From positions 1 to 64,000 of the forward strand of contig JANYFE010000012.1 in NCBI GenBank assembly GCA_025362795.1: a DNA stretch of 64,000 nucleotides, in the 5' to 3' direction. How positions within the stretch are numbered: the first letter of the stretch is position 1; each line of letters opens with the position of its first letter. Shown piece by piece: positions 7,047-21,131 of the stretch. This DNA is from Rhodobacterales bacterium (GTDB taxonomy: Bacteria; Pseudomonadota; Alphaproteobacteria; Rhodobacterales; Rhodobacteraceae). The notes under the pieces were generated by a model. That model did no database searches. It was not told the DNA's origin and was given only the letters and a program-made list of their open reading frames with translations. Both the position numbers and the translations under genes were made by a program.

Positions 7047-7093
7047 CACAGTCCTTTCGCCGCCAAAGCGGTCCTTGTATCTCTCGATTCACA

Positions 7094-7124
7094 TACCTAA
7101 TGTCTCTAGTAACTATAGGTTCAA
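7094..7124 (-). promoter_or_regulatory. MerR-type zntA promoter and operator
   Basis: On the minus strand, a -35 box TTGAAC (7124-7119) and a -10 box TAGGTA (7099-7094) are separated by 19 bases, the over-long spacer typical of MerR-family activated promoters. Inside the spacer is an imperfect dyad, 7-base arms around one central base (7104-7118, CTCTAGT/ACTATAG). This is where ZntR/CadR-type regulators bind and untwist DNA on metal binding. Confidence 0.8.
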
Positions 7125-7133
7125 GGGGTTTTC

Positions 7134-7574
7134 ATGCTGACTATCGGAAAACTTGGTGCGGCGACGGGCGTCAAGGTACCGACCATCCGTTACTACGAAC
7201 AGATTGGCCTGCTGCCCGACGCTGAACGCTCTTCCGGCAACCAGCGGCTCTACGGGCGGACCGTGCAAGACCGGCTTGCCTTTATTCGGCACGCCCGCGA
7301 ACTGGGTTTTCCTCTGGAGGCGATCCGGGATCTGTTGAGCCTGTCGGACCGCCCCGACCAGTCCTGCACAGAAGTAGATGCGATTGCTCAGGCTCAGTTG
7401 CAGGCGGTGAAAGGTCGGATTGCGCGCCTGCACGCGTTGAAGGGTGAACTGGAGCGGATGATTGGACAGTGTGCGGGTGGCAGCATTGCCGACTGCCGCG
7501 TGATCGAGGTGCTGGGCAACCATCTGCATTGTTCGGCCGATCATGGCCGCGATCTGCTTGCCGTGTCGGAGTAA
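7134..7574 (+). CDS. MerR-family metal-responsive regulator (ZntR/CadR-like)
   Basis: This 146-residue activator has the N-terminal MerR helix-turn-helix (TIGKLGAATGVKVPTIRYYE), a dimerisation helix and metal-ligand cysteines at SCTEV (about 79), CAGG and DCRV (about 115-124), with a His/Cys tail HLHCSADHGRD. The pattern is that of Zn/Cd/Pb sensors rather than Hg or Cu sensors. It should activate the divergent zntA gene through the 19-base-spacer promoter. The MFS gene begins five bases after its stop and is likely co-transcribed. Confidence 0.9.
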   Translation: MLTIGKLGAATGVKVPTIRYYEQIGLLPDAERSSGNQRLYGRTVQDRLAFIRHARELGFPLEAIRDLLSLSDRPDQSCTEVDAIAQAQLQAVKGRIARLHALKGELERMIGQCAGGSIADCRVIEVLGNHLHCSADHGRDLLAVSE

Positions 7575-7578
7575 GCCC

Positions 7579-8892
7579 ATGCTGCGCATTCTCTCCAACG
7601 GGACTTTCCGCCACCTCTATGTCGCTCAGGTCACTTCGCTGATCGGCACAGGACTGGCCACCGTGGCGCTCGGTCTGCTCGCCTGGCAATTGGCGGGCGC
7701 AAATGCCGGATTGGTGCTTGGGACAGCGCTGGCAATCAAGATGGTCGCTTATGTGACGCTTGCTCCGGTCGCGTCGGCACTGGCGGCACGGCTGCCGCGC
7801 CGGGCTTTTCTGGTCTCGCTGGATTTGATCCGCGCCGTTGTCGTGCTGTTCTTGCCGTTCGTCACGGAAGTTGGCCAAGTCTACTTTCTGATCTTCCTGC
7901 TGCAAGCCGCCTCTGCCGGGTTCACACCGGCATTTCAGGCGACGATCCCGGATGTGTTGCCGGAAGAAGCAGATTACACCAGCGCTTTGTCTCTGATGCG
8001 GCTGGCTGAGGATATGGAACAAGTGTTTAGCCCTATGCTTGCTGCTGGTTTGCTGACGCTGGTCAGCTTTCCCGTTCTGTTTGGCGGCACGGTCGCGGGC
8101 TTTGCGGTCTCGGCTGCGCTGGTGTTCAGTGTCAGTCTGCCCGCGCGCGTCCAAAGCCACGCTGAGCCTTTCTTCACGACCACCACCAAGGGCCTGCGAA
8201 TTTATCTGGCAACACCCCGGCTTCGCGGATTGATGGCGATGGAACTGGCTGTCGCCGCGGCTGGCGCGATGGTTTACGTCAACACAGTCGTGTTGGTGCA
8301 GGTGCGTCTGGGGCTGGGAGCGCCGCAGGTTGCGCTTGCGTTTGCGGCGTTTGGGGCGGGGTCGATGGCGGCGGCAGTGTTGTTGCCGCGTGTGTTGGAC
8401 CGGATGCCGGACCGTCCCGTGATGTTGGCTGGGGCGGCGGTAATGGTCGCGACGGTTGCAGTGCTGCCATTGGTCAGCGGGATGGCCGGATTGCTGCCGC
8501 TATGGTGTTTGGTCGGGTTCGGATTTGCACTAAGCCAGACTCCGATCGGTCGCATATTGAACCGATCCGCGCAGCCCGAAAATCGGCCGGCGATCTTTGC
8601 AGCGCAATTCGCACTGTCGCACGCCTGCTGGCTGGTCACTTACCCGCTGGCTGGGTGGCTGGGCGCGGCTTTCGGTTTGAATGTCGCTGCACTAGGCTTG
8701 GCAGGGCTGGGGTGTGGGGCGATGGCGATAGTATTCTGGGTGTGGCCTGCCGCCGACCCCGCCGAGTTGGCGCACTGCCACCCTGAACTCGCGCCCGATC
8801 ATCCCCATCTGGCAACAACCGCACACGGGCCGCACCGCCACAAATTCACGATCGACGCTTTGCACCAGCATTGGCCAAAGCTGACGGCCTGA
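7579..8892 (+). CDS. MFS transporter with His-rich cytoplasmic tail
   Basis: This 437-residue protein has about 12 hydrophobic segments, with the MFS_3/enterobactin-exporter-like layout. I start it at ATG 7579, right after the regulator stop; the longer frame from 7543 lies inside merR. The C-terminus is rich in His (AHCHPELAPDHPHL, then HGPHRHKF), which suggests metal binding or export. It forms a likely operon with the MerR regulator and is linked to zntA. Substrate is inferred from context only. Confidence 0.8.
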   Translation: MLRILSNGTFRHLYVAQVTSLIGTGLATVALGLLAWQLAGANAGLVLGTALAIKMVAYVTLAPVASALAARLPRRAFLVSLDLIRAVVVLFLPFVTEVGQVYFLIFLLQAASAGFTPAFQATIPDVLPEEADYTSALSLMRLAEDMEQVFSPMLAAGLLTLVSFPVLFGGTVAGFAVSAALVFSVSLPARVQSHAEPFFTTTTKGLRIYLATPRLRGLMAMELAVAAAGAMVYVNTVVLVQVRLGLGAPQVALAFAAFGAGSMAAAVLLPRVLDRMPDRPVMLAGAAVMVATVAVLPLVSGMAGLLPLWCLVGFGFALSQTPIGRILNRSAQPENRPAIFAAQFALSHACWLVTYPLAGWLGAAFGLNVAALGLAGLGCGAMAIVFWVWPAADPAELAHCHPELAPDHPHLATTAHGPHRHKFTIDALHQHWPKLTA

Positions 8893-9093
8893 AAACCATT
8901 TGCAATTTATGGCAAGTAGTCCGAACAAACCGTCACCACCCAACGCAGATCTCTCTTGGCGCGTTGAAAGCCATTTCTTCCTGAACGAAGTTTGGGGGGG
9001 GCTGATTTTTCCAGAGGTTTCCCGGTTTCCGCGCGATTAATACAGCCCTTGGCAAGCCACCGTCGTCGCGCCAGCGGTGGAGCGACGCGTGGT

Positions 9094-9520
9094 CAGTATC
9101 GCCGTGCCTTCTTTTCGGCGATCAAGCGGGACGGGTATACATTTATCGACGGGGGGATTTGGGCGAACAACCCCGTCATGGTCGGGCTGGTCGATGCACT
9201 TACATGCTTTGATATCGACAGACGGCAGGTCCGAATTCTGAGCCTTGGAACGGGCCAAACAAGGTTCCGTACAGGGCGTCGGCTCAACTTTGGGGGGCGG
9301 CTATTCTGGGCGAAAGGGTTCTACGACGCGGCAATGCGGTCAGAAGTCACACAATGCCCTCGGCCAAGCCTATCTGCTGGTGGGTAGGAACAACGTGCTA
9401 CGGCTGGACGCGCCGGAAACATCGAATTGGATTGAGATGGACGATGTTCGACGCGCAATCTCCGAACTTCCGGGCGTGGCTCGATCTCTGGTTGACGGTG
9501 CAGATCAACAGATCAACAGA
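9094..9520 (+). pseudogene. Broken patatin-like phospholipase (CapV-like) remnant
   Basis: One frame reads IKRDGYTFIDGGIWANNP, then VDALTCFDIDRRQ and VRILSLGTG. This is the C-terminal half of a patatin domain with its catalytic Asp in the DGG motif. Near 9345 the match jumps one frame and continues as SHNALGQAYLLVGRNNV and ELPGVARSLVDG. The N-terminal GxSxG nucleophile region is absent and the stretch before IKRDG is scrambled. The WANNPVMVG/SLGTG wording is like the phospholipases used as CBASS effectors, but no cyclase is nearby. It is dead as it stands. Confidence 0.7.
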
Positions 9521-9533
9521 TCAACAGATCAAC
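9502..9533 (+). repeat. Four perfect tandem copies of the octamer AGATCAAC
   Basis: The octamer AGATCAAC occurs four times in a row without interruption. It lies at the very end of the patatin remnant's second frame. Since eight is not a multiple of three, each gain or loss of a unit shifts the reading frame. Confidence 0.95.
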
Positions 9534-9682: not shown

Positions 9683-9729
9683 CTGGTGCCGCTGAAGAGA
9701 CTCGAACTCCCGACCCCATCATTACGAAT
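9683..9729. repeat. attL: direct repeat of the tRNA-Thr 3' half
   Basis: These 47 bases match 20878-20924 at 46 of 47 positions (the difference is T9693 versus C20888). The right-hand copy is the 3' half, anticodon loop to CCA end, of tRNA-Thr(CGT). A duplicate of a tRNA 3' half at the far end of an integrase-bearing segment is the standard signature of tRNA-targeting integration. Confidence 0.92.
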
Positions 9730-9932
9730 TGTAAACTTGACCTGTTGGACAGGGTTGCCTTGGGTAGGCTAAATTTAGCTAACATATTACAAAAAAAGCA
9801 CTTTCTGAACCAGTGGTGTTGGACGGGCTTCGATGGAGTTTGCTGCGCTTTGACTCCGCTCCCCTACTAACGCCCTACTAGCAAAACTTGGCGCGATGCG
9901 GATCGAACTGGCGGCTGCACCCCCTGCACCTA

Positions 9933-10013
9933 CCCCCCCCATCAACGGCTTTTCGGGCTTCTAGCCCATGGCGCGCCCTCGGTCCACCCACGTTGGCGAG
10001 CTAAGGGGGAGTC
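9933..10013. repeat. Imperfect direct repeat, copy A
   Basis: About 80 bases starting with a C8 tract, then TCAACGGCTTTT, CTCGGTCCACCC and GGGGGAGTC, reappear in diverged form at 11136-11218. The two copies face the same way and bracket the zinc-ribbon gene and the controller-type XRE gene. The rest of 9730-10039 shows no gene I can support. Confidence 0.6.
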
Positions 10014-10039
10014 TTGGGAAGCAAGCGGGGCGGTATTTG

Positions 10040-10561
10040 CTAGCCGAGTTTCCCCGCCTTCCAACTGTGACCGCACTGTAGGCAAGTCACCATGACTGCA
10101 TTGCTGCCCATGAACCCGGCGAGCAGACCCACGCCACCGGTCACTACTCCGCCGATCAGCGCCTTGCCTAAGCCGAAACCCTTCTTGTTTGCTGTCACGT
10201 GCTGCGACGCGCATTTTGGGCAAAAGGGGCCCGAGACTCTATCCAATGTTGACGGAACCGACCTAGACACTCGATCCACCATCCGGTGTTGACCGCCACC
10301 GTCGTCGAGTTCATGCCCACAAAATCTGCAAAGCTTCGCCTCAAGCCTGATATCCTCGGCGCACCACGGGCATTGCTTCATAGCCGGAGCGACTAGGGAT
10401 TCACGCCCGGCAAGGGCGGTCGAAGCAGTTTTGTCCGACATCCGAGGACAAGGCAGGCGGTAGGCCCATTGGCTGGTCGTACTGATCCCACAATGGATGC
10501 ACCGATCCAGTTCAAACTCGTGCCCCCGATGGGTGGTCGCGGCGTGGTCTGTGTTCTGCAC
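10040..10561 (-). CDS. Zinc-ribbon protein with a Gly-rich hydrophobic segment, function unknown
   Basis: This 173-residue protein begins at a GTG with AAGG/GAAGG upstream. It carries three Cys clusters: CIHCG near residue 22, a double zinc ribbon QCPWCAEDI...KLCRFCGHEL at about 62-83, and a split pair FCPKC (about 113) with CLQCGHSW near the C-terminus. The last pair is interrupted by a hydrophobic Gly-rich stretch (LIGGVVTGGVGLLAGF) long enough to cross or insert into a membrane. It is divergent from the controller gene and may be repressed or activated through the shared C-box region. No function is assigned. Confidence 0.75.
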   Translation of the reverse strand: MQNTDHAATTHRGHEFELDRCIHCGISTTSQWAYRLPCPRMSDKTASTALAGRESLVAPAMKQCPWCAEDIRLEAKLCRFCGHELDDGGGQHRMVDRVSRSVPSTLDRVSGPFCPKCASQHVTANKKGFGLGKALIGGVVTGGVGLLAGFMGSNAVMVTCLQCGHSWKAGKLG

Positions 10562-10601
10562 TTGCCTTCACCTTGCTAGCCGAATTCAGAATAGGTCTCG
10601 A

Positions 10602-10661
10602 AACTTATAGTCTACAATACGGCCTTCCTATGTCTCATGTCTGAAAATGAGACTCATAGTC
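10602..10661. promoter_or_regulatory. C-box operators between the zinc-ribbon and XRE genes
   Basis: Controller proteins of restriction-modification systems bind GACT-N3-AGTC boxes. Here 10651-10661 reads GACTCATAGTC, a perfect match, and 10602-10612 reads AACTTATAGTC, one base off. A half-match CTCATGTCTG lies at 10634-10643, and an inverted repeat GTCTCAT/ATGAGAC spans 10632-10653. The perfect box ends 37 bases before the XRE start codon, suitable for autoregulation of both divergent genes. Confidence 0.75.
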
Positions 10662-10698
10662 TGTAGATTCATAGGCAGCGCCAGCCTTTGCCACGTGC

Positions 10699-10917
10699 AT
10701 GGATATCAGGCGGGTTGTCGGGGAAAATCTGCGGGAAGAACGGGAGCGCCAACGCCTCTCGCAAGAAGAGCTTGCCTTCCGCGCTGAACTCCACCGCACT
10801 TACGTCAGCGGCGTCGAGCGCGGCGTCCGCAATCCCACCGTAAAGATCGTGGCACGGCTGGCTGAGGCCTTGGGGGTTGAGCCTTCTGCTCTTCTTGAAC
10901 GCCGACCAGAACGCTAG
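10699..10917 (+). CDS. XRE-family regulator resembling a restriction-modification controller (C) protein
   Basis: This 72-residue protein is essentially one helix-turn-helix domain: REERERQRLSQEELAFRAEL, then HRTYVSGVERGVRNPT and LAEALGVEPSALLERR. Size and wording match C proteins, which bind C-boxes as dimers and time restriction enzyme expression, and matching boxes lie directly upstream. No clear ribosome-binding site precedes the ATG, as in many leaderless C genes. The likely restriction and methylation genes are 7-10 kb away, so it is an orphan in position, or it controls the zinc-ribbon gene. Confidence 0.85.
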   Translation: MDIRRVVGENLREERERQRLSQEELAFRAELHRTYVSGVERGVRNPTVKIVARLAEALGVEPSALLERRPER

Positions 10918-11459
10918 TTCTGAAACTTGGGGCGTCGCGTCGCGACTGGGCTTGCGGTGCATTTGAGGTTGCTTTTACTTTGCCTCGACGCGCTGCCACT
11001 TCGGACAGATGGCACTATGCATTCTCTGCATACAGCCCAACTCCCGGAACGATCAGATCAGTAAGTAAACCGGTGCAGTAGGCAAAGTGCGCTTTTTGCA
11101 CATTGCCCGCCGAGCCCCCCCCCCCCCCGCTACCACCCCCCCCCCGTCAACGGCTTTTGGGCTTCCACGGCAGGCAGGCGCTCTCGGTCCACCCCCCTTG
11201 GAACGCTTACGGGGGACTCATAGGTGAACCTGAATCGTGGTGCGGCGAAGCGCCCTTGCCCGGCGTTTTAGGCGGCAGATCCCGCCCACGGGACAAAAGT
11301 CAACTGTTAATATCCCCTTCCAAACCATTGCTTGTTCGCGTGCGCGCGTTGGACGGGTTTAGCTACGTTTGGATGGCGCTACATGAAGATAACTATCTGA
11401 TTTTGATTGTAAATTCATGATTTTTGACCTAAGTTGAGTTGAGGCCAAGGGAGGTCTCA
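10918..11459. other. Non-coding stretch with C14 and C10 tracts and repeat copy B
   Basis: No convincing gene is present. The stretch holds a run of 14 C (11115-11128), a run of 10 C (11136-11145) and the second copy of the 80-base repeat (11136-11218; first copy 9933-10013). The 3' portion becomes AT-rich (11380-11440) just before the integrase and probably carries its promoter. A ribosome-binding site GGGAGG ends about five bases before the integrase ATG. Confidence 0.6.
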
Positions 11460-12653
11460 ATGTCAGCTTTCAAGTTCACCAAGCGCTCAGTTGAAAATGT
11501 GGAACTGCCCCAATCTGGGCAAGTTCTTTACCGCGACACCATGCTTCCGGGGTTCGGCCTTCGGGTTGGACAGCGATCCAAGGTTTTTGTTGTTGAGGGT
11601 CAGGTCAACCGGCGCACCAAGCGCGTCACCATCGGGCGCACCGATGTTATGTCTGTGGATGACGCGCGGAAACGTGCGATGGCCACCCTCAGCGAAATGG
11701 CCGCTGGCAAAGACCCTGCGGCAGAGAAGCGCAAAGCGGCAATGGAGGCGATCACCCTCGACCAAGCCTTCAACGCATTCTTCACAGCGCGGACGGCACT
11801 CGCCGCCCACACGGTCGACCTCTACAGCCGCACCCAGAAACTTTACCTGAAGGACTGGCAGAAGACCGCGATGGTCAAGATCAGTCGGCAGATGGTGCTG
11901 AAAAGGCATCAGCGCATTGCGAAGGAAAATGGCGAGGTCACGGCCAACAACGTCATGCGGCATCTGCGTTCGGTCTACAATTTCACCGCCGCAGGCTTCG
12001 AAGAGTTTCCGGCCAACCCCGTCACCATCCTGACGCAGGGCCGCGCATGGTATCCAGAGAAGCGTCGCCGGGGCGTAGTCAGCGCCCAAAACCTGCCTGA
12101 CTGGTGGGCCGCTGTCATGGAAGAGCCGGACTACTCCCGCGATTTTCTGTTCGTCGCACTGTTTACCGGAATGCGCCGCGCTGAAGTCGGTGGCCTCCGC
12201 TGGGAAAACATCAACCTCCCAGCCCGAACGCTGCACATCCCTACGACCAAGAACGGCGATCCTCTGGACTTGCCGCTGTCCGATTTCTTGGTTGACCTGT
12301 TGAGGGCGCGCAGGGCTTGGGTTGCGGCCTCACCTTGGGTATTTCCCAGCGTCAGCAAGGCCGGGCACATTGTCGAAACCAAGAAGTTCACCGCGCGGGT
12401 GACGGAACGTTGCGGGTTGGATTTCACCATGCACGACCTGCGCCGCACGTTTATCACCATCGCCGAAAGCCTCGACATACCGCACTATGCGTTGAAGCGG
12501 CTTCTGAACCATAGGATAAGCGGCGATGTTACGGGCGGCTATATTGTGATCGATTCGGAGCGGCTGAGAGGGCCGGTCGAGAAGGTTGCCGCTGCGATCC
12601 TACGCTCCGTTCAAAGTTCCGAACCCAAAACCGCTCTCCTTGCTGCCGAGTAG
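11460..12653 (+). CDS. int: Tyrosine-type site-specific integrase
   Basis: This 397-residue recombinase has an N-terminal arm-binding domain of the DUF4102 type (GFGLRVGQRS, RVTIGRTDVMSVDDAR), a core-binding domain at about 95-190 and a catalytic domain. Catalytic residues visible are Arg239 (FTGMRRAE), His325 and Arg328 (HDLRRTF), His351 (LLNHR) and nucleophile Tyr361 (GGYIVID). I start it at ATG 11460 with GGGAGG upstream; a TTG at 11439 is also open. It should integrate and, with the AlpA-like protein, excise the element at tRNA-Thr. It looks intact. Confidence 0.93.
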   Translation: MSAFKFTKRSVENVELPQSGQVLYRDTMLPGFGLRVGQRSKVFVVEGQVNRRTKRVTIGRTDVMSVDDARKRAMATLSEMAAGKDPAAEKRKAAMEAITLDQAFNAFFTARTALAAHTVDLYSRTQKLYLKDWQKTAMVKISRQMVLKRHQRIAKENGEVTANNVMRHLRSVYNFTAAGFEEFPANPVTILTQGRAWYPEKRRRGVVSAQNLPDWWAAVMEEPDYSRDFLFVALFTGMRRAEVGGLRWENINLPARTLHIPTTKNGDPLDLPLSDFLVDLLRARRAWVAASPWVFPSVSKAGHIVETKKFTARVTERCGLDFTMHDLRRTFITIAESLDIPHYALKRLLNHRISGDVTGGYIVIDSERLRGPVEKVAAAILRSVQSSEPKTALLAAE

Positions 12654-12931
12654 TTTCTCTGTTTTGGACCGCGTTGGACGAGCAGAAAAACCAAACCAAA
12701 ATTGCTTGGAACCCTGTGCCGCATGCGCTAGGTTTTGACTACCTGCAACTGAGTGACCCAAAACGCGTGTGACAAAACGCTGAGGCCAGTTAAAGTCTGG
12801 TAGTAGGTCGGTGAGATCGTAAACGTGAAGTGATCTCTTAAACGAACGGAAACCCCGGGCCGCGTCATCCCCTTTAACCTGCAATGCAGCTCCTGCAACT
12901 GGGCCTGCTTGCGCATCCCTTGGAGATGACA
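12654..12931. other. Intergenic region between integrase and AlpA-like gene
   Basis: There is no gene of convincing quality in these 278 bases. It should contain the promoter for the AlpA-primase operon. Short AAAACGC repeats (12761-12781) are visible, and GGAG lies at 12922-12925 as ribosome-binding site for the next gene. Confidence 0.5.
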
Positions 12932-13144
12932 ATGGCCCTTGACCTCAAAGAGCGTGGGCATCTTTTGTCCACGAAACAAGTCGCTGACCGAACAGGGCTC
13001 AGCAAATCATTCTTCGAAAAAGGCCGCATCTATGGGTACGGCCCGAAGTTCTTCAAGCTACGCAGCCGCGTCTTCTACGGTGTTGGCGACGTCGAAGCAT
13101 GGGTTGCAAATGGCATGAAGAATCCGGGAGGCATGAATGTCTGA
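12932..13144 (+). CDS. AlpA-like helix-turn-helix regulator/excisionase
   Basis: This 70-residue protein has a winged helix-turn-helix of the HTH_17/AlpA type: LLSTKQVADRTGLSKSFFEK, then RIYGYGPKFFKLRSRVFYGV and DVEAWVANG. AlpA-type proteins in P4-like elements regulate or assist excision. I start it at ATG 12932, six bases after GGAG. Its end overlaps the primase-helicase start by 8 bases, so the two are coupled. Confidence 0.8.
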   Translation: MALDLKERGHLLSTKQVADRTGLSKSFFEKGRIYGYGPKFFKLRSRVFYGVGDVEAWVANGMKNPGGMNV

Positions 13145-15491
13145 CTCGCGTGAAGAAAAACTAAATGAGATCATGGACTTTCTGCTCTCCCTCCGCAACT
13201 TCGTGCGCAGCGACATGTACAACACCTTCAAAGTCAGCGAAGGAAATGGCTATGGCCATGTCAAATCTGCCGTCTCGGACCTAGTGGTTAGACGCCATGC
13301 TGAAGGCGTTCAGCCCATCGCAGTTTTCTTTTTGAAGGGCGACTTAGTGCGCGCCGCTGCGCTCGATCTCGACTCGCACGATGGCAGCATGGATTGGGAT
13401 ACGATGACTGCTTGGGCGCTGCCAATCGTCATGCGGCTGCGCGAACTTGACCTCAAACCTATGTGCTTCAGGTCTGGCGGGGGTGCAGGAATGCACATCT
13501 GGGTGCTGTGGAAGGAGCCGCAATCAGCAGCTCGTGTTCGCAAAGTGCTGGCGGCTGTTTTGGCGGAATTTGGAGCAAGAACTGGCACAGGCGGTGTTAT
13601 TGAACGAACGGTTGAAATCTTCCCAAAAGCCGATGTGCTGGCACCGGGAGGTGTCGGGAGCTGCATTGCGCTGCCCTTAGCGCGCAAATCCGTCGTGCTA
13701 GGCGAGAACCTTGAAATCATACCGAAGGATGAATTCCAAAAACCCGACCTCGCAGCGATGTGCTCAAAACCGATCGCTGAGGTGAGCATCCTGTTGCGCG
13801 ACGAGGCACCAAGGAAGGCAACTGATACGCCCCGTCGAGCCCATCCCGACATTATTATGGACGGGGATGAACAAGAGGCGCGAGGTGCACTTATGGTTGT
13901 GCCCTCAGATGACTACGATACATGGATAAAGGTCGGCCTAGGACTAAAGAATGCCTTCGGAAATGCCGGATATACTGCTTGGGAAGAGTGGTCCGCGCGC
14001 TCATCCAAGTTTGGCGGCGCTGAATTGACGAGAGAGGTGTGGGACAGCCTCAAGCCCGACGGCACGTTGACGCTCGGAACGGTCTTCTTCCTCGCGCAAC
14101 AGCGTGGGTGGAACGGCCCCAGTGATCCGCAGATTCGGCAAATGAATCGGGAGTATGGGGTGCTGGCACAAGGTAAGCGGACTCAAATCATTATCAAGAA
14201 TCCCGGGCCAGAATCCATGGAAGTGGTCGAATTTCTTAGCAAAGAAACCCTGAAGGATAGGCTGGCGGGAAGCTTTGCAAGGGCTGAGGGTGTCAGCAAG
14301 GAGCCCCTCGCAGACCATTGGCTGCGTCACGCCAAGGCGGCACGTTACACCCGGCTGGAGTTCGACCCAGAAAAACCACCGGGCCACAACGGAACCACCT
14401 GGAACGTTTGGTCGGGCTTTGCATTTACGCCAGAGCCGGGAGATTGGAGCCTCTTGAACCGGCATATCCATGAGAACATCGCACGTGGCGACGATGAGCT
14501 TCACGCTTGGTTGGTAAACTGGCTGGCGCTGGGCGTTCAGCAACCGGGGCTGGTGATCGGCACGGCGCCGACTCTCAAGGGCCTGCCCGGCACAGGCAAA
14601 GGCGTGCTCGCCCACGCCTATGGTCGGTTGTGGGGACCGCACTACGCCAGCATCACCCATGACGCACATGTCAAAGGCAGGTTCAACTCCCACCTTTTTG
14701 GACGGCGCTTTGTCTTCATTGATGAAGGCATCTTTGGAGGCGACAGGCGTGATGCCGGGGTGCTGAAAACCCGCATCACGGAACCTGAACTGATGTTGGA
14801 AATGAAGGGGGTTGACGCCATCAAAGTCAAGAATCGGACCATTCACATGGTCGCTTCGAATGAAGATTCGGTGGTTCCAGCCGATATGGGCGACCGCAGG
14901 TGGCAGGTCATCGAGGTGTCGGCCGCGCGCCGCGAAGATCACGCTTACTTCGGAGCAATCGAACAACAGCTACGCGCCGGTGGTTTCGAAGCAATGCTCT
15001 TCGATCTTGTAACGCGGGATATTTCGACTGGGCCGGACCCACGCAAAACGATCAAAACACCCGAGTTGTTCGAACAAATTATTCGTGCGGGCAGCCCGGG
15101 CTTGCGCTATGTTTACGAACTCCTCGACGAGGGCCGCTTACCCCAGCCAAGTGTTCGAGGGAACGGACCGGGTCGGACCACGATCGGGGCCTTGCACGCC
15201 GAAATGATGCAGCGGTTTCCCCGTGGCGGCTTCACGTCGCCCAGTGAGTTGGGACGTTTTATATCGCGCCTGTTTCCCACTATAAAAACAGTGCAGAGTG
15301 GCACATTCACTGAGCGAACGTCAGGCCTTGTCGAAAATCACCGTTCGACACGGTATACCTTTCCGCCACTCGCAATCGCGCGTCGGCAATTTGAGGCGCA
15401 CATGCGTCAAATCATTCCGTGGACGCGAACAATAGATGATTGGGACGATGATTCAGACCACGAGACAATTTCGGACGAAATACCGTTTTAG
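13137..15491 (+). CDS. Primase-helicase replication protein (AEP-type primase, PriCT-2, SF3-like ATPase)
   Basis: This 784-residue protein has three parts. Residues 1-200 resemble an archaeo-eukaryotic primase of the TOTE type: LDLDSHDG (76-83), RSGGGAGMHIW (112-122), EIFPKAD (160-166) and CIALPLARK. Residues about 250-320 match PriCT-2 (DYDTWIKVGLGLKNAFGNAG). The ATPase has Walker A GLPGTGKG (482-489) and Walker B FVFIDEG, as in phage/satellite helicases (DUF5906). It probably starts replication of the excised element. The C-terminus ends in an acidic cluster (DDWDDDSDHE). It appears intact. Confidence 0.88.
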   Translation: MSDSREEKLNEIMDFLLSLRNFVRSDMYNTFKVSEGNGYGHVKSAVSDLVVRRHAEGVQPIAVFFLKGDLVRAAALDLDSHDGSMDWDTMTAWALPIVMRLRELDLKPMCFRSGGGAGMHIWVLWKEPQSAARVRKVLAAVLAEFGARTGTGGVIERTVEIFPKADVLAPGGVGSCIALPLARKSVVLGENLEIIPKDEFQKPDLAAMCSKPIAEVSILLRDEAPRKATDTPRRAHPDIIMDGDEQEARGALMVVPSDDYDTWIKVGLGLKNAFGNAGYTAWEEWSARSSKFGGAELTREVWDSLKPDGTLTLGTVFFLAQQRGWNGPSDPQIRQMNREYGVLAQGKRTQIIIKNPGPESMEVVEFLSKETLKDRLAGSFARAEGVSKEPLADHWLRHAKAARYTRLEFDPEKPPGHNGTTWNVWSGFAFTPEPGDWSLLNRHIHENIARGDDELHAWLVNWLALGVQQPGLVIGTAPTLKGLPGTGKGVLAHAYGRLWGPHYASITHDAHVKGRFNSHLFGRRFVFIDEGIFGGDRRDAGVLKTRITEPELMLEMKGVDAIKVKNRTIHMVASNEDSVVPADMGDRRWQVIEVSAARREDHAYFGAIEQQLRAGGFEAMLFDLVTRDISTGPDPRKTIKTPELFEQIIRAGSPGLRYVYELLDEGRLPQPSVRGNGPGRTTIGALHAEMMQRFPRGGFTSPSELGRFISRLFPTIKTVQSGTFTERTSGLVENHRSTRYTFPPLAIARRQFEAHMRQIIPWTRTIDDWDDDSDHETISDEIPF

Positions 15492-15519
15492 TGCGCAATA
15501 TAGGTGAGCTATGCAACAT

Positions 15520-15560
15520 GGCCTATTGGCAGTACACAGCCAGTAGGCCATCTTTCTTTG
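15520..15560 (+). terminator. Intrinsic terminator after the primase-helicase
   Basis: GGCCTATTGG (15520-15529) pairs with CCAGTAGGCC (15540-15549) across a 10-base loop with a single G-T wobble. TCTTTCTTT follows. It lies 29 bases after the primase-helicase stop codon. Confidence 0.75.
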
Positions 15561-16043
15561 TAGTTCCTAGAACCACCATATTGGTTATACATCCCATATT
15601 GTCATCTTACTGCTGACTAAGACAATAATGCAGCCGCCCACTGCCCAACTCGATCCCCTATCTAGCGCCGGTGCGTGCCCATGGCGGGGCTTGGCGTGGT
15701 GCCCGCTACCCCAGTGGCCAAAACGCCATACAGGCCCCCAGCGGCCCGCCTACGGCGTTTGCGGGGCAGCAGCGCAAATTAGGCTATATTAAAATGTGCG
15801 ACGTTCGAAATAGAGCGAGAATGAACGTCACCTGAGATCAGACTTCGGACTTTGACCGCACCCTGCTCGTCTGGCAGTTGCCCCCTGTTCGTAACCATAA
15901 ATGTGCTGTTCTGATTGTTCTCTGGTTGCGCCCGCTTGAGCCACCCCTTAGGCTGACACAGCCGAGAGTCTTCCAGAAACCGGAACTCATTAGCTTGACT
16001 TGTTAACAGTTGAGGCGGGCCATCACAGCCCGCCCAAAAATTA
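15561..16043. other. Gene-poor spacer, candidate replication origin of the element
   Basis: About 480 bases without a credible gene. An AT-rich part (15575-15630) is followed by a GC-rich block (15670-15775) with several G4/C4 runs and an inverted repeat AAACGCC/GGCGTTT (about 15720-15762), then another AT-rich piece (15775-15800). Directly downstream of the replication gene, such a patch is where satellite or plasmid origins often lie. Function is inferred only. Confidence 0.35.
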
Positions 16044-16178
16044 CTAGCGCTTGCGATCCGGTGCCTGCGTCAGTGCTGAAGCCGCCACCCTTTTGACCGC
16101 CTTTGGCGTCTTGGGGTTTGCAAGCAACTTGGCGGCCTTGGATGCCACATTGATGGAAGTATTCTCGCTCTTCGCCAT
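16044..16178 (-). CDS. 44-residue basic helical protein, unknown
   Basis: The protein reads MAKSENTSINVASKAAKLLA and continues with a Lys/Arg-rich, Ala-rich helix ending APDRKR. GAGAGGAA precedes the ATG at a good distance. It starts 13 bases after the stop of the 61-residue gene, so the two form a small operon. The composition suggests a soluble DNA- or RNA-associated peptide. No function is known to me. Confidence 0.65.
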   Translation of the reverse strand: MAKSENTSINVASKAAKLLANPKTPKAVKRVAASALTQAPDRKR

Positions 16179-16190
16179 CACACATTCCTC

Positions 16191-16376
16191 TCAGGCGTAC
16201 TGGATCAGGGACCAGGTGACCGCATTACCGCCATATGGCGGCATGCGGTTGCCCTTGGCGATAGGTGCGGTCGTGCTGGGCGTGCCCGCCACCTTCCACA
16301 CGCCGCTTTCGGGGCAGACTTCGCCGGTTCTGGCTGTGGTGCCCAGCGGCACGCGGCTTTTGGCAGTGTAGTTCAT
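16191..16376 (-). CDS. 61-residue protein with CPESG motif, unknown
   Basis: The protein has the order TARTGEVCPESGVWKV, then TTAPIAKGNRMPPYGG and ends AVTWSLIQYA. A perfect AAGGAG lies seven bases before the ATG. The single Cys in a CPxSGxW context and the compact size suggest a small folded domain rather than a chance frame. It is first in a two-gene unit with the 44-residue basic protein and divergent from the XRE-ImmA operon, so all four genes may share one control region. Confidence 0.7.
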   Translation of the reverse strand: MNYTAKSRVPLGTTARTGEVCPESGVWKVAGTPSTTAPIAKGNRMPPYGGNAVTWSLIQYA

Positions 16377-16487
16377 CAGTCAACTCCTTGATAGCGGGCT
16401 GTCCGTGTTTGGTTGCCCGATTTCGTATAGATATATCGAATGCTTCCATCCGTCAACCTCTGTGGTATGATTGCGTATCATCTAACC

Positions 16488-16519
16488 TGACGGCGCGCCG
16501 AGCCCGTGGCGCGCCGTCA
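16488..16519. promoter_or_regulatory. Perfect 12-bp inverted repeat in the XRE leader
   Basis: TGACGGCGCGCC (16488-16499) and GGCGCGCCGTCA (16508-16519) are exact reverse complements across an 8-base loop. The repeat ends nine bases before the GGGAGGGAG ribosome-binding site (16528-16536) of the XRE gene. It can be an operator for the XRE repressor, a leader hairpin, or both. There is no T-tract, so it is not a normal intrinsic terminator. Confidence 0.7.
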
Positions 16520-16539
16520 TGATTCTGGGAGGGAGTTGC

Positions 16540-16875
16540 ATGTCTCTTGCCACAAGGCTGAACCAGCTAAGGCTGCGAAGAACGCAGTCATTACAGCAGG
16601 TTGCTGATTCGATCGGAGTTTCAAAGACGCACATTTGGGAACTGGAGAAAGGGCGCAGCGACAATCCATCGCTTGAAATGCTGACGAAGTTGGCGAACCA
16701 CTTCGGCGTCACAATCCGCAGCATTATTGGGGAAGACCCCGACTCGTCTGCCGATGACAAGCTGGCCATGATGTTCCGACAGGCCGGTGATCTAGGCGAA
16801 AATGACCGCGCTGTCTTGGAGGTTATGATCCGTGAAATGTTAAACAGGAACCGCACCCGTGGCACTGACAATTGA
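16540..16875 (+). CDS. XRE-family transcriptional repressor
   Basis: This 111-residue protein has an N-terminal helix-turn-helix (LQQVADSIGVSKTHIWELEK, then NPSLEMLTKLANHFGVTI) and a short helical tail. I start it at ATG 16540, because the ATG at 16519 lies in the hairpin and GGGAGGGAG precedes 16540. Its end overlaps the ImmA-like gene by 17 bases. Such pairs work as a repressor that its partner protease cleaves on a DNA-damage or other signal, which releases the element. Confidence 0.88.
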   Translation: MSLATRLNQLRLRRTQSLQQVADSIGVSKTHIWELEKGRSDNPSLEMLTKLANHFGVTIRSIIGEDPDSSADDKLAMMFRQAGDLGENDRAVLEVMIREMLNRNRTRGTDN

Positions 16876-17725
16876 TCGTATGGAAATCGACGACGCCGGA
16901 GCCAATCCCAAGAAATTGGCCGAAGCGATTGTAAAGCAGCTACCGCAAGGCGTTCGCGCCATTCCGGTCCGCGAAATCGCGTCAGCAATCGACATCTATG
17001 AAATTCGGGAAGCGGTTCTGGACGGGCTAGAGGGCGGCCTGATCGTTCCTGAAGACAAATCCCATGGGGCCATCCTTGTTCATTCGGACCGGCATGAAAC
17101 CCGCAAGCGATACACCATTGCGCACGAAATTGGCCACTATGTGAACCCAACGCACCTCTCCAGCAGCCCGAACGGCTTCATGTGTTCGCGGAAGGACATG
17201 AATGTGGATTCCGCGAAAACGGGCGATCAACACGCCAAGATGGAATTGGAGGCTAATCAGTTCGCCGCCGACCTTCTGATGCCCGGTGCGATGGTCAATG
17301 CGTTTCTTAGCAGAAAACTTGGCGCGGACCTTGAACACATCTTTGCGCTTGCCGACTGGTTCGAGGTGAGCAAGGAAGCGGCGGCGCGGCGTTATGTCGT
17401 CCATTTGGATGTGCCTGCGGCAATCGTGTTTTCCTTTAAGGGCATCGTCCGCTATATAAAGACGAGCGGCAGCTTTCCGCGTCTGTCAGTCTGGAACGAC
17501 GTCGCGATCCCCGGCGACTGCCTCTCCGCCACAAGCCGCGCCGAAGTAGGCAGAGTGACAGACACAGTGGAGACCCCCGGCCACCTGTGGCTGGAAAGGT
17601 CAGCGGGGCTATCGTTGGGTGAACAGACCGTCGCACAACAGAATGGTTACCGCATGACCTTGCTCACCGTTGAGTCGACTGAGAGTGAAGAAGAGGAATG
17701 GGAAGCGCCCCGGTTCCGGAGTTAG
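16859..17725 (+). CDS. ImmA/IrrE-family metallo-endopeptidase
   Basis: This 288-residue protein has the zinc-protease motif TIAHEIGHYVNP (His89, Glu90, His93) and a conserved ELEANQFAADLLMP segment. It starts with GTG 16859 inside the XRE gene; ATG 16880 is an alternative start. In ICEBs1 the homologue cleaves the XRE-type repressor, and in Deinococcus IrrE triggers the damage response. Here it most likely inactivates the coupled XRE protein. The C-terminal 100 residues, beyond the protease, are of unknown role. Confidence 0.9.
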   Translation: MALTIDRMEIDDAGANPKKLAEAIVKQLPQGVRAIPVREIASAIDIYEIREAVLDGLEGGLIVPEDKSHGAILVHSDRHETRKRYTIAHEIGHYVNPTHLSSSPNGFMCSRKDMNVDSAKTGDQHAKMELEANQFAADLLMPGAMVNAFLSRKLGADLEHIFALADWFEVSKEAAARRYVVHLDVPAAIVFSFKGIVRYIKTSGSFPRLSVWNDVAIPGDCLSATSRAEVGRVTDTVETPGHLWLERSAGLSLGEQTVAQQNGYRMTLLTVESTESEEEEWEAPRFRS

Positions 17726-17813
17726 CACGCTCAGTTTCAAGGAACTTTTTTGTGCTCGCTTGCCGCGCGCAAATCGGATAGCGAAGAGATAATCCGCCAT
17801 CCAGGAACTGCGT

Positions 17814-18959
17814 ATGAGGCGTTTTTTGCTGCAAGCTGTGCAGGAAGAAGATCACCTTGCGCCAGCGCGCGAGGTCTTTGGCCTTGCAGATTTGGACCGC
17901 GCGATAATCAGTACGGCATTTATGACAGCGTCCGGGCTATTGCTGTTGAAAGAAGTTCTTGAGCCTATTGCAAATAGAACCAAGCTCTTTGTCGGCATCC
18001 GAAACGGCGTCACCACTGTCCAGTCCATCCAAAAGGCGCTTGAAATAGGGTGCGAGACATATCTGGTGGATACCGGAACGCGGACACGCATTTTCCATCC
18101 AAAGTTATACTATGCGCACAGCACGGCGCGCGCCAAACTGCTGCTCGGGAGTGCCAATTTGACTATGGGCGGACTGCGAACCAATATTGAGGCGAGCGTA
18201 TTGCAGACCTTCGACCCCGCAATTGCTGACGACGCCGGGTTTCTGGTGGACTTGGAAACCAAGCTTAACGCTATGATCACGGACTTCCCAGAACATGTGA
18301 TCCGTGCGACGGACCACGATCAACTCGCTGTGTTGCTGCGCTCAGGTCGCCTGCTAGACGAAAGAAAGGTGCGCGCACCTGAACCGGCAGGAAGTTCCGC
18401 AGATCGCGATTTGGACACCGTGCCACGCATGAAGCTGCTCACGGCACCAATTTCAGTTCCAAGGGCAGCACTGCCCCCGGTGCCGACAGCCGCGCCAACC
18501 GCGCCGGTCGCGCTGGCACGGCAGGAGCTAGTCTGGGAGAGCGACGGGCTTACCGAACGCCATCTCAATATTCCGACGGGTTCGAATACCAATGCGACTG
18601 GGTCAATGCTCTTCGGACTTGGCGCTTGGAGTGGTATTGATCATCAGTTTTATTTCCGGGATGAGGTGTTCAAGGCCCTCAATTGGACAAACGATACTGC
18701 ACTCGAAAAGTCACACCTCGAGCGAGCGTGGGCAACATTTCGGCTGATAATTAAGGATTTGGACTACGGCGAAAAACCGCTCAAACTGACCCACAATTCC
18801 TTGACCAGCGCAAGAATCATCAAGGCACGAAACAGCAAGACCCAGTTGCATTGGGGCTTGGTAAAGCCTCTGGTTGCGCGCAAAGACCTTCTTGGGAGTG
18901 TCCTCAAGCTGTTCCGCGACACTGACGATCCGACCCGATTCACGCTTGAAATCGACTGA
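17814..18959 (+). CDS. PLD-family restriction endonuclease candidate (BfiI/NgoFVII-like)
   Basis: This 381-residue protein has one phospholipase D catalytic motif: His95 and Lys97 in FHPKLYY, Asn115 in LLLGSANLTMGG and Glu126 in NIEASVL. A single motif means two subunits make one active site, as in the metal-independent restriction enzyme BfiI. A Pro/Ala-rich linker (about 205-235) leads to a C-terminal domain of about 140 residues, possibly the DNA-reading part. The adjacent convergent methyltransferase makes a restriction-modification pair likely. Alternative: a PLD effector of another defence type. No close relative was checked. Confidence 0.75.
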   Translation: MRRFLLQAVQEEDHLAPAREVFGLADLDRAIISTAFMTASGLLLLKEVLEPIANRTKLFVGIRNGVTTVQSIQKALEIGCETYLVDTGTRTRIFHPKLYYAHSTARAKLLLGSANLTMGGLRTNIEASVLQTFDPAIADDAGFLVDLETKLNAMITDFPEHVIRATDHDQLAVLLRSGRLLDERKVRAPEPAGSSADRDLDTVPRMKLLTAPISVPRAALPPVPTAAPTAPVALARQELVWESDGLTERHLNIPTGSNTNATGSMLFGLGAWSGIDHQFYFRDEVFKALNWTNDTALEKSHLERAWATFRLIIKDLDYGEKPLKLTHNSLTSARIIKARNSKTQLHWGLVKPLVARKDLLGSVLKLFRDTDDPTRFTLEID

Positions 18960-18960
18960 A

Positions 18961-20589
18961 TCACTCAGCCGAAAGACGTTGACGCCGGTCTCGCAAGAGC
19001 ACCCATCCGGCCAGCAAATCGAGCTGATCACCCTTGGATATTCCCAAGCTGCCCAACACCGACTCCGACTGCTTTTCAAGCGTTTCAATAACCGAGTTCT
19101 GGCGCACCATGTGATCGAGCGACTCCAATTTCGGCTCGGTCTTCTCGGAGGAAGGGAGTAGTAACTTTTCGATCTCTGAGGGCACCAGCTCCAGCACTCC
19201 TCCGCCGTAATGCCTGCCTTCCAGTTCCGCGCTTAGGGCCGTTAGGCTATTCACGAAACTGTAAACAAGTTGTTCGGCAGTCCCGCGCAGCGGTCTGATT
19301 CGGTATGCGGTATCCGTGGTGTAAGCGTTCGCTCGGTTTAGGATTAGGCGCGGAGTATCATGGCTGCGCTTAAGCATTCCGACCTCAGTAGAATAAACCG
19401 ATGGCACCGTGTACCACGGCTTTCGAATGCCACACTTATACCGCGTATGCAGATTTTCCCGCTCACCAGCTTCGATGTATGAGCGCACCTTTCGGGAATC
19501 CTCGACTCCTTCACCCCTTAACCATAGGAAGTTTGTTGGCTTTCCCGTTGCGGCGTTTCTAGCATGTTGCTCTTCGTCGTAAATGATCCCAGGACAATGA
19601 TCGCTCCGCCCGAACATTGGATGCGCCCACTCTGACAGGCCGTGAAGAGCAACCACGTCATCCGTCACCAAAAAGAATTTGTTCGCGCCAGTAACAATAC
19701 CGACGTCCACCGACGCCACGTCTTCAAATCTGTAAATGTCGTTTCGCGCTTCTAGCTCATCCAGAATGGAGAGCGCCTTAGTTGAGATTAGGGCACGGGT
19801 CCATTTACCCACGACGGTTTTGCCGTTGATGGCGCGAGGGGTGTTGAATATCGTCTCCGGGTCTTGGCGCAGGAACTTCCTGCCGCTCACGCGGAGGATT
19901 CCCAAGCCTTCGCCGTGAGTTTCGGGTGTCATCTTCTTCTCGGCCAAAAGCAGCACCGCGCCTTGTAGGGTGCCTTCAAACCAGATTTCTTGTGGATCGA
20001 CTATTACGATCCGCCGACATTCCTTTCCAAGATAGGTGCGCAGCGACTGTGCGTGCATCACGTGGACAATTTCGGAAGGAACGACCATCGCCAGCCTGCC
20101 GCCGGGCCGAAGTAGCTCCAGAGACGCCAGAATAAACGGAACCCAAGCATTGGTATGTTTGGTGAATTTGCACGAGAGCGCAGAAAAGATTGCTTCTGAA
20201 TTTGCCTGAAACTCGGGCGGCAGGTATTGGTAACGAACAAAGGGAGGATTCCCGAGGACTGCATCAAAGCCCGATGGTGCCTCCCGAACCCGGCCAAGTG
20301 CCCAGCCTAGGAAATCCGTTTGTGTCACGTTGCACTTTACAAGGTGGAGTTGTTCTGCCCTTCGTGCGGCCTTTGACGCCTCTTCCAAATCAAGTTCAAA
20401 AGCCGTGATGTCCGCATTGGGAGCATGGTCTGCTAACGGCGAAAAGAAGGCTCCGTCACCGCAACTAGGTTCGAGAATTTTTTCTTCGCCTGTCGGACAG
20501 GCCCAGCGCACCAAGAAGTCTGCAAGGTCGAGGGGCGTGTAGTATCCGCCTCTAAGTTTCTGCGCCGTTTCTTGTCCAATGAAGTTCAT
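18961..20589 (-). CDS. N6-adenine DNA methyltransferase (TaqI/Eco57I class)
   Basis: This 542-residue methyltransferase has GGYYTP (14-19), the S-adenosylmethionine motif LEPSCGDGAFF (39-49) and the catalytic NPPF (114-117) in VLGNPPFVRYQ. This is the gamma arrangement, with a long C-terminal target-recognition region. It converges on the PLD nuclease with one base between the two stops. It should protect the element's host DNA from that nuclease. No separate specificity subunit is present, so recognition is built in. Base composition is visibly more AT-rich than the core genes. Confidence 0.9.
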   Translation of the reverse strand: MNFIGQETAQKLRGGYYTPLDLADFLVRWACPTGEEKILEPSCGDGAFFSPLADHAPNADITAFELDLEEASKAARRAEQLHLVKCNVTQTDFLGWALGRVREAPSGFDAVLGNPPFVRYQYLPPEFQANSEAIFSALSCKFTKHTNAWVPFILASLELLRPGGRLAMVVPSEIVHVMHAQSLRTYLGKECRRIVIVDPQEIWFEGTLQGAVLLLAEKKMTPETHGEGLGILRVSGRKFLRQDPETIFNTPRAINGKTVVGKWTRALISTKALSILDELEARNDIYRFEDVASVDVGIVTGANKFFLVTDDVVALHGLSEWAHPMFGRSDHCPGIIYDEEQHARNAATGKPTNFLWLRGEGVEDSRKVRSYIEAGERENLHTRYKCGIRKPWYTVPSVYSTEVGMLKRSHDTPRLILNRANAYTTDTAYRIRPLRGTAEQLVYSFVNSLTALSAELEGRHYGGGVLELVPSEIEKLLLPSSEKTEPKLESLDHMVRQNSVIETLEKQSESVLGSLGISKGDQLDLLAGWVLLRDRRQRLSAE

Positions 20590-20877
20590 GTTCGCTGCCC
20601 CAGCCCCGTCCTGCTTTGGCCACCGCGTGACCCTGTTGACTAGGTTCCTTGTCGCACTGTCACTCTGAACCCGTGGTTAATCTGGGCAAACAGGTCTATC
20701 TGCCAACCGTGCAGCATGTAACGCCTAGCCGGAATCGTGGGCAAGGATATTTTGTGAGTGGCGAAGTGCTTCACACATCATGTCGTGGTGTGGTAGGCAG
20801 TGGACTCAACCGCGCCCACACCTACTACTTCTAACGGTAAACCGTTCGCATCCCCGCAGCCTAGATTTTGTTGATTT
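20590..20877. other. Spacer between methyltransferase and tRNA-Thr
   Basis: No gene is supported. It must hold the methyltransferase promoter on the minus strand. I see no C-box here, which argues against direct control by the element's controller-type XRE protein. Confidence 0.5.
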
Positions 20878-20924
20878 CTGGTGCCGCCGAAGAGACTCGA
20901 ACTCCCGACCCCATCATTACGAAT
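20878..20924. repeat. attR: 3' half of tRNA-Thr matching attL
   Basis: Same 47 bases as 9683-9729 with one difference. In tRNA numbering the repeat runs from nucleotide 31, the edge of the anticodon loop, through the encoded CCA plus one base. This places strand exchange at the anticodon loop, a common choice for tyrosine integrases. Confidence 0.92.
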
Positions 20925-20954
20925 GACGTGCTCTACCAGCTGAGCTACGGCGGC
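20879..20954 (-). tRNA. tRNA-Thr(CGT)
   Basis: The 76 bases fold as acceptor GCCGCCG/CGGCGGC, D-stem GCTC/GAGC, anticodon stem CGTCA/TGATG with loop TTCGTAA, T-stem GGGAG/CTCTT, then A and encoded CCA. The anticodon CGT reads ACG (threonine). The 3' half is now supplied by the element end, so the gene stays intact after integration. Confidence 0.93.
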
Positions 20955-21049
20955 ACTTTTCTGGTGTGGCCCCTACTATGGCCCTACTATTTCCAAGTCA
21001 AGCCCCGTAAGCGACTGGTTTTACGCGTCATTCCGGGGCGGACCCAACA

Positions 21050-21087
21050 ATTACGAACGACGTGCTCTCCCAACCGAGCTACAGTGG
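21050..21087 (-). pseudogene. Orphan 5' half of a tRNA-Thr-like gene
   Basis: On the minus strand the bases read GCCACTGTAGCTCGGTTGGG, then AGAGCACGTCGTTCGTAA: acceptor strand, D-arm and anticodon stem-loop with the same CGT anticodon. Similarity stops right after the anticodon loop; what follows cannot form the rest of a tRNA. It lies 95 bases upstream of the intact tRNA-Thr. Confidence 0.75.
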
Positions 21088-21131
21088 CTTGGTGAAGGGC
21101 TCCTAGCATTCCGCAAACGGGCTGGGTAGTG

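Follow-up and report, generated by a model that had tools for sequence, protein, structure and literature searches.

PICMI satellites of Vibrionaceae have a core of integrase, AlpA, and primase, and their model names DUF5906 (PF19263). In the describing paper (PMC10803314), insertion at fis is their hallmark, their average size in Vibrionaceae is 6.7 kb, 67 of 135 elements in complete genomes are in Vibrionaceae, and complete PICMI are reported from Vibrio alone, the variants outside this genus being PICMI-like but incomplete. For P4-like satellites, the marker families given in PMC8628076 are Psu (PF07455), delta (PF04606), AlpA (PF05930), epsilon (PF10554), and alpha (PF03288). Here, we report an 11-kb element at positions 9683 to 20924 of a 64,000-nucleotide stretch of DNA from a Rhodobacterales bacterium (contig JANYFE010000012.1; the whole stretch is called the window). 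It is probably a site-specific integrative element, one of a family that targets tRNA-Thr(CGT), carrying defense cargo and dependent for its movement on a helper, for which a tailed phage is the likeliest candidate. Comparison of the DNA establishes boundaries, a target, a predicted integrase, an excisionase-like protein, a putative self-priming replicase, and interchangeable defense cargo. As in PICMI, the integrase belongs to PF00589 and the primase carries DUF5906 (PF19263, 3.6e-20).

The element is bounded by a 47-bp direct repeat with one mismatch. The distal attachment (att) copy at the left end (9683 to 9729) agrees at 46/47 positions with the copy at 20878 to 20924. The latter makes up the 3′ half of the integration target, an undamaged tRNA-Thr(CGT) gene (20879 to 20954, minus strand; ARAGORN and Rfam RF00005). 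No such match was found in 100 shuffles of the window, which bears out the boundaries and target proposed in an earlier note on this DNA. GC content is 0.54 to 0.58 in the element interior versus 0.60 to 0.64 in the 3 kb to its right. The att copies were compared by eye. On this basis, the tRNA-side copy tracks the host tRNA in three other genomes (G136, G375, and G432) and the window. For G136 and the window, base pairing with the 5′ acceptor strand is intact with this copy but would be broken with the distal one; distal copies from G000, G130, G136, G150, G375, G432, G433, and G435 share a common type, CCGCTGAAG. Because the tRNA-side copy is host-like and the distal copies are of one type, the distal copy is probably element borne, with strand exchange near the tRNA 3′ end. 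The window’s distal copy has 46 bases identical to the intact tRNA of a genome of the same genus (G009), which would fit an earlier host within that genus. A short tandem repeat of CAGATCAA lies near the distal copy (9501 to 9532), and a degenerate second tRNA-Thr 5′ half, which recurs in many relatives, lies just upstream of the intact gene (21041 to 21088).

Relatives were sought with a profile built from three integrases (carrier threshold, E < 1e-90). Of 394 genomes of the window’s family (about one genome per genus), 14 were positive, and among 337 genomes across the class, only the window’s own integrase matched at E 1e-90 (0/336 others). In a scan of the genome-contig collection, integrases 66 to 71% identical turned up in six named carriers, namely, Ruegeria marina (G432), Actibacterium mucosum (G150), Albibacillus kandeliae (G130), Roseovarius marisflavi (G433), Nioella sediminis (G434), and Ruegeria arenilitoris (G435); a seventh match (an Idiomarina metagenome-assembled genome, 25%) was dropped. 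The 17 carriers examined were the 14 profile-positive genomes minus G380, whose integrase has two stops, plus G432 to G435, and the integrase open reading frame (ORF) is open in all 17. tRNA-Thr(CGT) is on the integrase contig in 16/17; in G150, the element spans a contig break, the distal copy being on the integrase contig and the tRNA on a second contig, 0.6 kb from its end. A partial second att copy ending at the same base was found in 14/17 carriers, on the tRNA contig in 11 (at 85% identity in G434) and on another contig in 3 (G150, G433, and G217). No second copy was above threshold in G028, G304, or G081 (the last with only a 79% match), and G375 has an additional partial copy on another contig. 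Copies on one contig are 11.0 to 35 kb apart. The layout differs in G028 and G304, where the integrase directly adjoins the tRNA (on its 5′ side in G304). In a control search of 61 relatives at E 1e-11, 49 had a match. The window aside, such a partial copy was present in G010 alone, as part of a tRNA that another insertion has split. That insertion (L037, G010:C15:210605-224582) is ∼13.9 kb long and splits tRNA-Thr into halves overlapping by 13 bases; an adjoining 424-amino-acid ORF is integrase-like by look and has no match to the window integrase. No description of the tRNA-Thr island family was found in the literature searched, coverage of which was partial.

The earlier note named the lack of any strain with a clean empty tRNA-Thr site as a refuting outcome, and this outcome did not arise. 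Five genomes (G012, G017, G020, G025, and G031) carry tRNA-Thr(CGT) beside hemY in the window’s orientation; the 8 to 10 kb 3′ of the tRNA contain no integrase match, and a second partial att copy is absent (E 1e-11). Their left flanks differ from that of the window, so no same-flank empty allele was seen among the genomes sampled (one per species, as draft contigs).

The tyrosine integrase (11460 to 12653, plus strand; PF00589 and PF13356) is followed by an AlpA/HTH_17-like excisionase gene (putative recombination directionality factor; 12932 to 13144, plus strand), which overlaps the start of a gene for a 784-amino-acid primase-polymerase fused to a helicase-like domain (13137 to 15491, plus strand). 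The last contains AEP-TOTE (PF22548), PriCT_2 (PF08707), and DUF5906 domains and matches PDB entries 6k9c in the helicase part (1.6e-12) and 7nqf in the N-terminal part (1.3e-8). Motifs HExxH, HxK, NPPF, Walker A, and H-R-H-Y, which we take to be catalytic, appear intact by eye in the window proteins. The AlpA-like assignment made in the earlier note is supported by homologues and fold, not by the protein’s own Pfam matches: it matches neither AlpA (PF05930) nor HTH_17 (PF12728) and gives a weak PHROG excisionase match (PHROG 66, 7e-5). It aligns with nine relatives (alignment A5). Its homologues in G432 (8e-12) and G435 (6.5e-6, just below cut-off) match HTH_17. Its AlphaFold model (pLDDT 77) has excisionases as top PDB matches, the first being RdfS (8dgl; E 0.006, TM 0.69), with no PDB match at E < 0.001. 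An AlpA-like gene lies between integrase and primase in 7/7 members of the first set. Pfam also recovered the integrase, primase-helicase, XRE protein, M78 peptidase, and Eco57I-type methylase named previously, with PLDc_2 below its cut-off. No virion, terminase, relaxase, or secretion family was above cut-off among the ten main window ORFs, in agreement with the stated lack of virion and conjugation genes.

Across carriers, integrase and site stay constant as a pair, and what is exchanged is the type of primase and entire defense systems, with unrelated primases and different defense systems occupying equivalent slots. Primases of the window type, 47 to 50% identical, occur in G130, G150, G432, G433, and G435, and a Prim-Pol (PF09250)-type primase occurs in G434, with homologues at 53 to 63% in G217, G178, G404, and G136. 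G235 has a VapE-type primase, G081 has a 789-amino-acid ORF of no assigned primase type, and matches to the window-type primase lie on other contigs in G304. Next after the primase, G130, G432, G433, G434, G435, G217, and G178 have an exonuclease-I-like gene, which is fragmented in G404 (Pfam check in G432 only). Single-protein primase searches of genome-contig and viral-contig collections gave no close relatives. A family-wide search gave some match in 84/394 genomes, near full length only in G130 and G150 in that draw; a primase profile against viral contigs gave 71 loci, mostly a short stretch near the PriCT domain, and was left unused.

Defense genes of the relatives were identified in part by a PADLOC scan of 30 ORFs from six genomes. 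On the tRNA side of the primase, G435 carries brxA, brxB, brxC, pglX, pglZ, and brxL, presumably a full type I BREX set; G432 carries type I restriction-modification (R-M) with PrrC; G433, type I R-M with PtuA (Septu); G130, type I genes (read from sequence) and a PtuA-like ATPase; G150, a C5 methylase plus a protein whose C-terminal part is DndH-like; and G434, a C5 methylase and an SNF2-type helicase. Cargo on the opposite side of the integrase comprises multiubiquitin, E2, and E1-like genes (a Bub-like operon; L166:6596-9104) and a type IV enzyme in G432 and an EVE-HNH protein in G130. The BREX stretches of G217 and G435 are 89 to 90% identical and their integrases 70%; a block shared by G304 and G130 is 88 to 91% identical, with integrases unalignable at the DNA level; and the type I genes of G178 and G130 are 77% identical, with integrases at 70%. 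Since cargo identity is out of step with integrase divergence, cargo moves between backbones.

The window’s own cargo includes a defense block that starts with CapH-CapP, an HTH repressor and M78 protease on the same strand as a PLD-family nuclease gene. The XRE-ImmA pair named earlier is present and can be identified more exactly as CapH (16540 to 16875, plus strand; PADLOC PDLC04142, 4e-23) and CapP (16859 to 17725, plus strand; PDLC04141, 1.9e-50; solved CapP 7t5t, E 8e-10). Just upstream of capH, a perfect 12-bp inverted repeat (16488 to 16519, no strand assigned) is a candidate CapH operator. The nuclease, a candidate restriction enzyme (17814 to 18959, plus strand; PLDc_2 at 1e-4, below cut-off), gives a weak match to a restriction endonuclease (PDB 2c1l, which is BfiI; E 0.003) and may have a BfiI-like catalytic domain; its AlphaFold model (pLDDT 53) was left unused. 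An N6-adenine methyltransferase of Eco57I type follows (18961 to 20589, minus strand; PF22837, 1.5e-88; PDLC03267, 2.5e-189). Nuclease and methylase lie tail to tail in the window, a Yoonia plasmid, a Roseobacter litoralis plasmid, and genomes G485 and G050. Two of six plasmid matches and four of seven other genome matches to the nuclease were inspected; the pair was present in 2/2 and 2/4 (L203 and L204), respectively, and the two weaker genome matches (short loci L205 and L206) had no methylase in the locus. CapH-CapP had no match in the 4-kb pair loci of G485 and G050 and was not annotated beside the pair on the two plasmids. Because the pairing recurs without capHP elsewhere, nuclease and methylase form a unit, which CapH-CapP precedes in the window. 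If confirmed, CapH-CapP ahead of a restriction enzyme would be damage-inducible R-M. CapH-CapP was also considered as part of the element core, which is unsupported, as capHP had no match in the searched stretches of other elements.

Between the distal att copy and the integrase, two copies of an 80-bp repeat (9930 to 10003, model R1, 56 bits; 11134 to 11207, 39 bits, 2.2e-13; both plus strand and both training copies) flank a divergent gene pair. One gene encodes a zinc-ribbon cargo protein (10040 to 10561, minus strand; DZR PF12773, just above cut-off), and the other encodes a homologue of R-M controller (C) proteins with no adjacent R-M pair (10699 to 10917, plus strand; PADLOC PDLC03665, 9e-21). 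Their promoter region (10602 to 10661, plus strand) contains two C-box-like sites, a perfect GACTNATAGTC and another that deviates from it at 1 position; their number is within chance (25/100 shuffles reach 2). C-box-like sites occur only there, and government of the element’s own R-M by the C protein is unsupported. Like the window’s pair (10040 to 10917), a divergent zinc-ribbon/C-protein pair without R-M genes lies beside the tRNA end in G166, and G136 has a C-protein match, which hints at a fused second element at the window’s left end. The C-protein homologue, the zinc-ribbon gene, and both repeats were absent from the earlier inventory.

Nine copies (from G000, G130, G178, G432, G433, and G435) served to train the repeat model. 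Against 295 genomes, it gave matches below 1e-7 in five (G000, G130, G178, G217, and G304), all integrase carriers; three of these supplied training copies, leaving G217 and G304 as independent finds, the G304 copy being on a contig other than the integrase’s. Weaker matches (E up to 0.01) in 16 further genomes, most of them not known carriers, appear to be mostly chance (best, G309, 6e-6). In 43 loci, 22 matches (E up to 1, nine of them training) fell in 16/28 element sources and 0/15 control loci, with one (L171, E 0.25) outside the element. Of nine cargo zones analyzed, seven contain copies, 15 in total (E up to 0.02); every one is on the strand of the integrase, and 14/15 lie between ORFs. 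In G000, G136, G235, G404, and G433, copies are located ∼180 to 310 bp inward of the distal att (weak in G136 and G235). Two readings were rejected: a structured RNA, as the consensus folds at −0.4 kcal/mol and shows no covariation, and derivation from att, which is weak (36/1,000 shuffles reach the summed score). Homology-block ends lie ≤150 bp from a repeat in 10/26 cases versus 2.4 expected under free placement (P = 0.0006) or 5.3 with placement confined to inter-ORF gaps (P = 0.026; median P = 0.064). As the ends are not independent, this is only suggestive of the repeat marking homology breakpoints. The repeat may be an arm site of the element end, in view of the copies close to the distal att, or a scar of stacked elements, a cassette recombination site, or a regulatory site. 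We consider it quite improbable that the repeats are functional recombination or end sites at which the family, riding phages, swaps defense cassettes as an array, integron-like or by end-stacking, run by the tRNA-targeting integrase. The repeat nevertheless offers a concrete DNA feature for the question of how defense cargo is swapped on such islands.

Two small minus-strand ORFs between primase and capH had no Pfam match (16044 to 16178, read from sequence, and 16191 to 16376). Directly outside the distal att is a patatin-like phospholipase fragment (8992 to 9387; Pfam 0.008, below cut-off), possibly a remnant of an older defense gene. Further left (4794 to 8892) are genes that, judged from their sequence, encode a P-type ATPase, a MerR-like regulator, and an MFS transporter. 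Portions of this region recur elsewhere in the genus, with no match beside tRNA-Thr in loci of 15 relatives.

In the proposed cycle, the integrase would insert a circle at the tRNA 3′ half, the AlpA-like protein would shift it to excision upon induction, and the primase-polymerase-helicase would replicate the excised form; these roles, and protection by the cargo, are grounded in the protein families. Packaging and delivery of the element would be the work of a helper, a tailed phage being the most likely one, as in PICMI (PMC10803314) and jumbo-phage islands (PMC12595487). Because no transfer gene was recognized and these two systems are characterized, we infer helper-phage delivery by analogy. 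Cargo would benefit the host and guard the niche: single-stranded-DNA-activated CapP would cleave CapH, raising expression of the PLD restriction enzyme, and the opposite-strand methylase would shield self DNA. Of the earlier proposal of a phage satellite or dependent element with defense genes, an integrative element that bears defense genes and lacks recognized transfer genes is well supported by 16 further integrase carriers at or near the same tRNA, and satellite status is plausible, given the PICMI-like core.

Several results weigh against this cycle. An IMG/VR pattern search gave no integrase relative, and among the 15 matches listed for each, none exceeded 35% identity to phages or 41% to plasmids. 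Members reach 35 kb versus the PICMI average given above (PMC10803314). CapH-CapP control of the restriction enzyme is suggested by homology, and the lack of capHP matches in other elements noted above counts here too. The analysis turned up no helper, no cos/pac site, no reads across a circle, and no particle. No primase was recognized beside the integrase in the stretches fetched from G375, G166, G028, and G304, which also favors an immobile defense island, formerly mobile and now a fixed hotspot with cargo turnover by homologous recombination. Cargo shared by members with diverged integrases, the repeat duplicated at the window’s left end, and the two stops in the G380 integrase point the same way; we nonetheless hold such an island to be rather unlikely, as integrases are open in 17/17 carriers examined and att copies end at the same base in 14/17.

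Sizes of 11 to 35 kb and tRNA targeting fit an integrative mobilizable element that excises, replicates, and is passed on by a conjugative element via a hidden origin of transfer. No relaxase or mobilization family was above cut-off in ten window ORFs, the C-protein HTH giving only weak sub-cut-off matches to MobT and TrbA models, and we regard this route as unlikely. Transfer by gene transfer agents, vesicles, or natural transformation in place of a helper phage is very improbable: Rhodobacterales produce gene transfer agents, but the capacity of their heads, ∼4 to 5 kb, is too small for one 11- to 35-kb element. Helper-phage movement of a tRNA-Thr integrative element is the reading we prefer. 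Roseobacters are important marine bacteria, and they now have a defined defense-island family with known target, core, and boundaries, whose excision and helper dependence are directly testable.

Compared with described systems, the element is not P4-like, contrary to the comparison drawn in the earlier note. P4-like satellites likewise have an integrase, an alpA-type gene, a primase-helicase, and a defense hotspot (PMC8628076), but at E 0.01 none of the Psu, delta, AlpA, epsilon, and alpha families was matched by the ten main ORFs, and P4-like membership is rejected. Tycheposons, compared by description only, share a tRNA at one border, a tyrosine recombinase, and cargo but are described mainly with nutrient cargo (PMC10872708 and PMC11389934). 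Islands in tmRNA moved by jumbo phage resemble the element in RNA-gene target, direct repeats, tyrosine integrase, AlpA, and defense cargo, including type II R-M, without transfer genes; the window element shows these traits, with AlpA recognized by homologues and fold only. These IntY-AlpA islands differ in targeting tmRNA instead of tRNA-Thr, in their frequent YqaJ, RadC, and Gp2-like genes, and in their hosts (Pseudomonas and others), and the word primase is absent from the main text of their description (PMC12595487). The window element’s core of integrase, AlpA-like gene, and primase resembles that of PICMI, which likewise have no capsid-remodeling or packaging genes and place accessory or defense genes in a variable region from prim to the insertion site. 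PICMI, which are marked by helper-phage induction and concatemer packaging, use fis (PMC10803314), whereas the tRNA-Thr family uses tRNA-Thr(CGT), varies in primase type, and harbors entire BREX or type I systems. By their own defining sites, the tRNA-Thr family is a member of neither PICMI nor the jumbo-phage islands.

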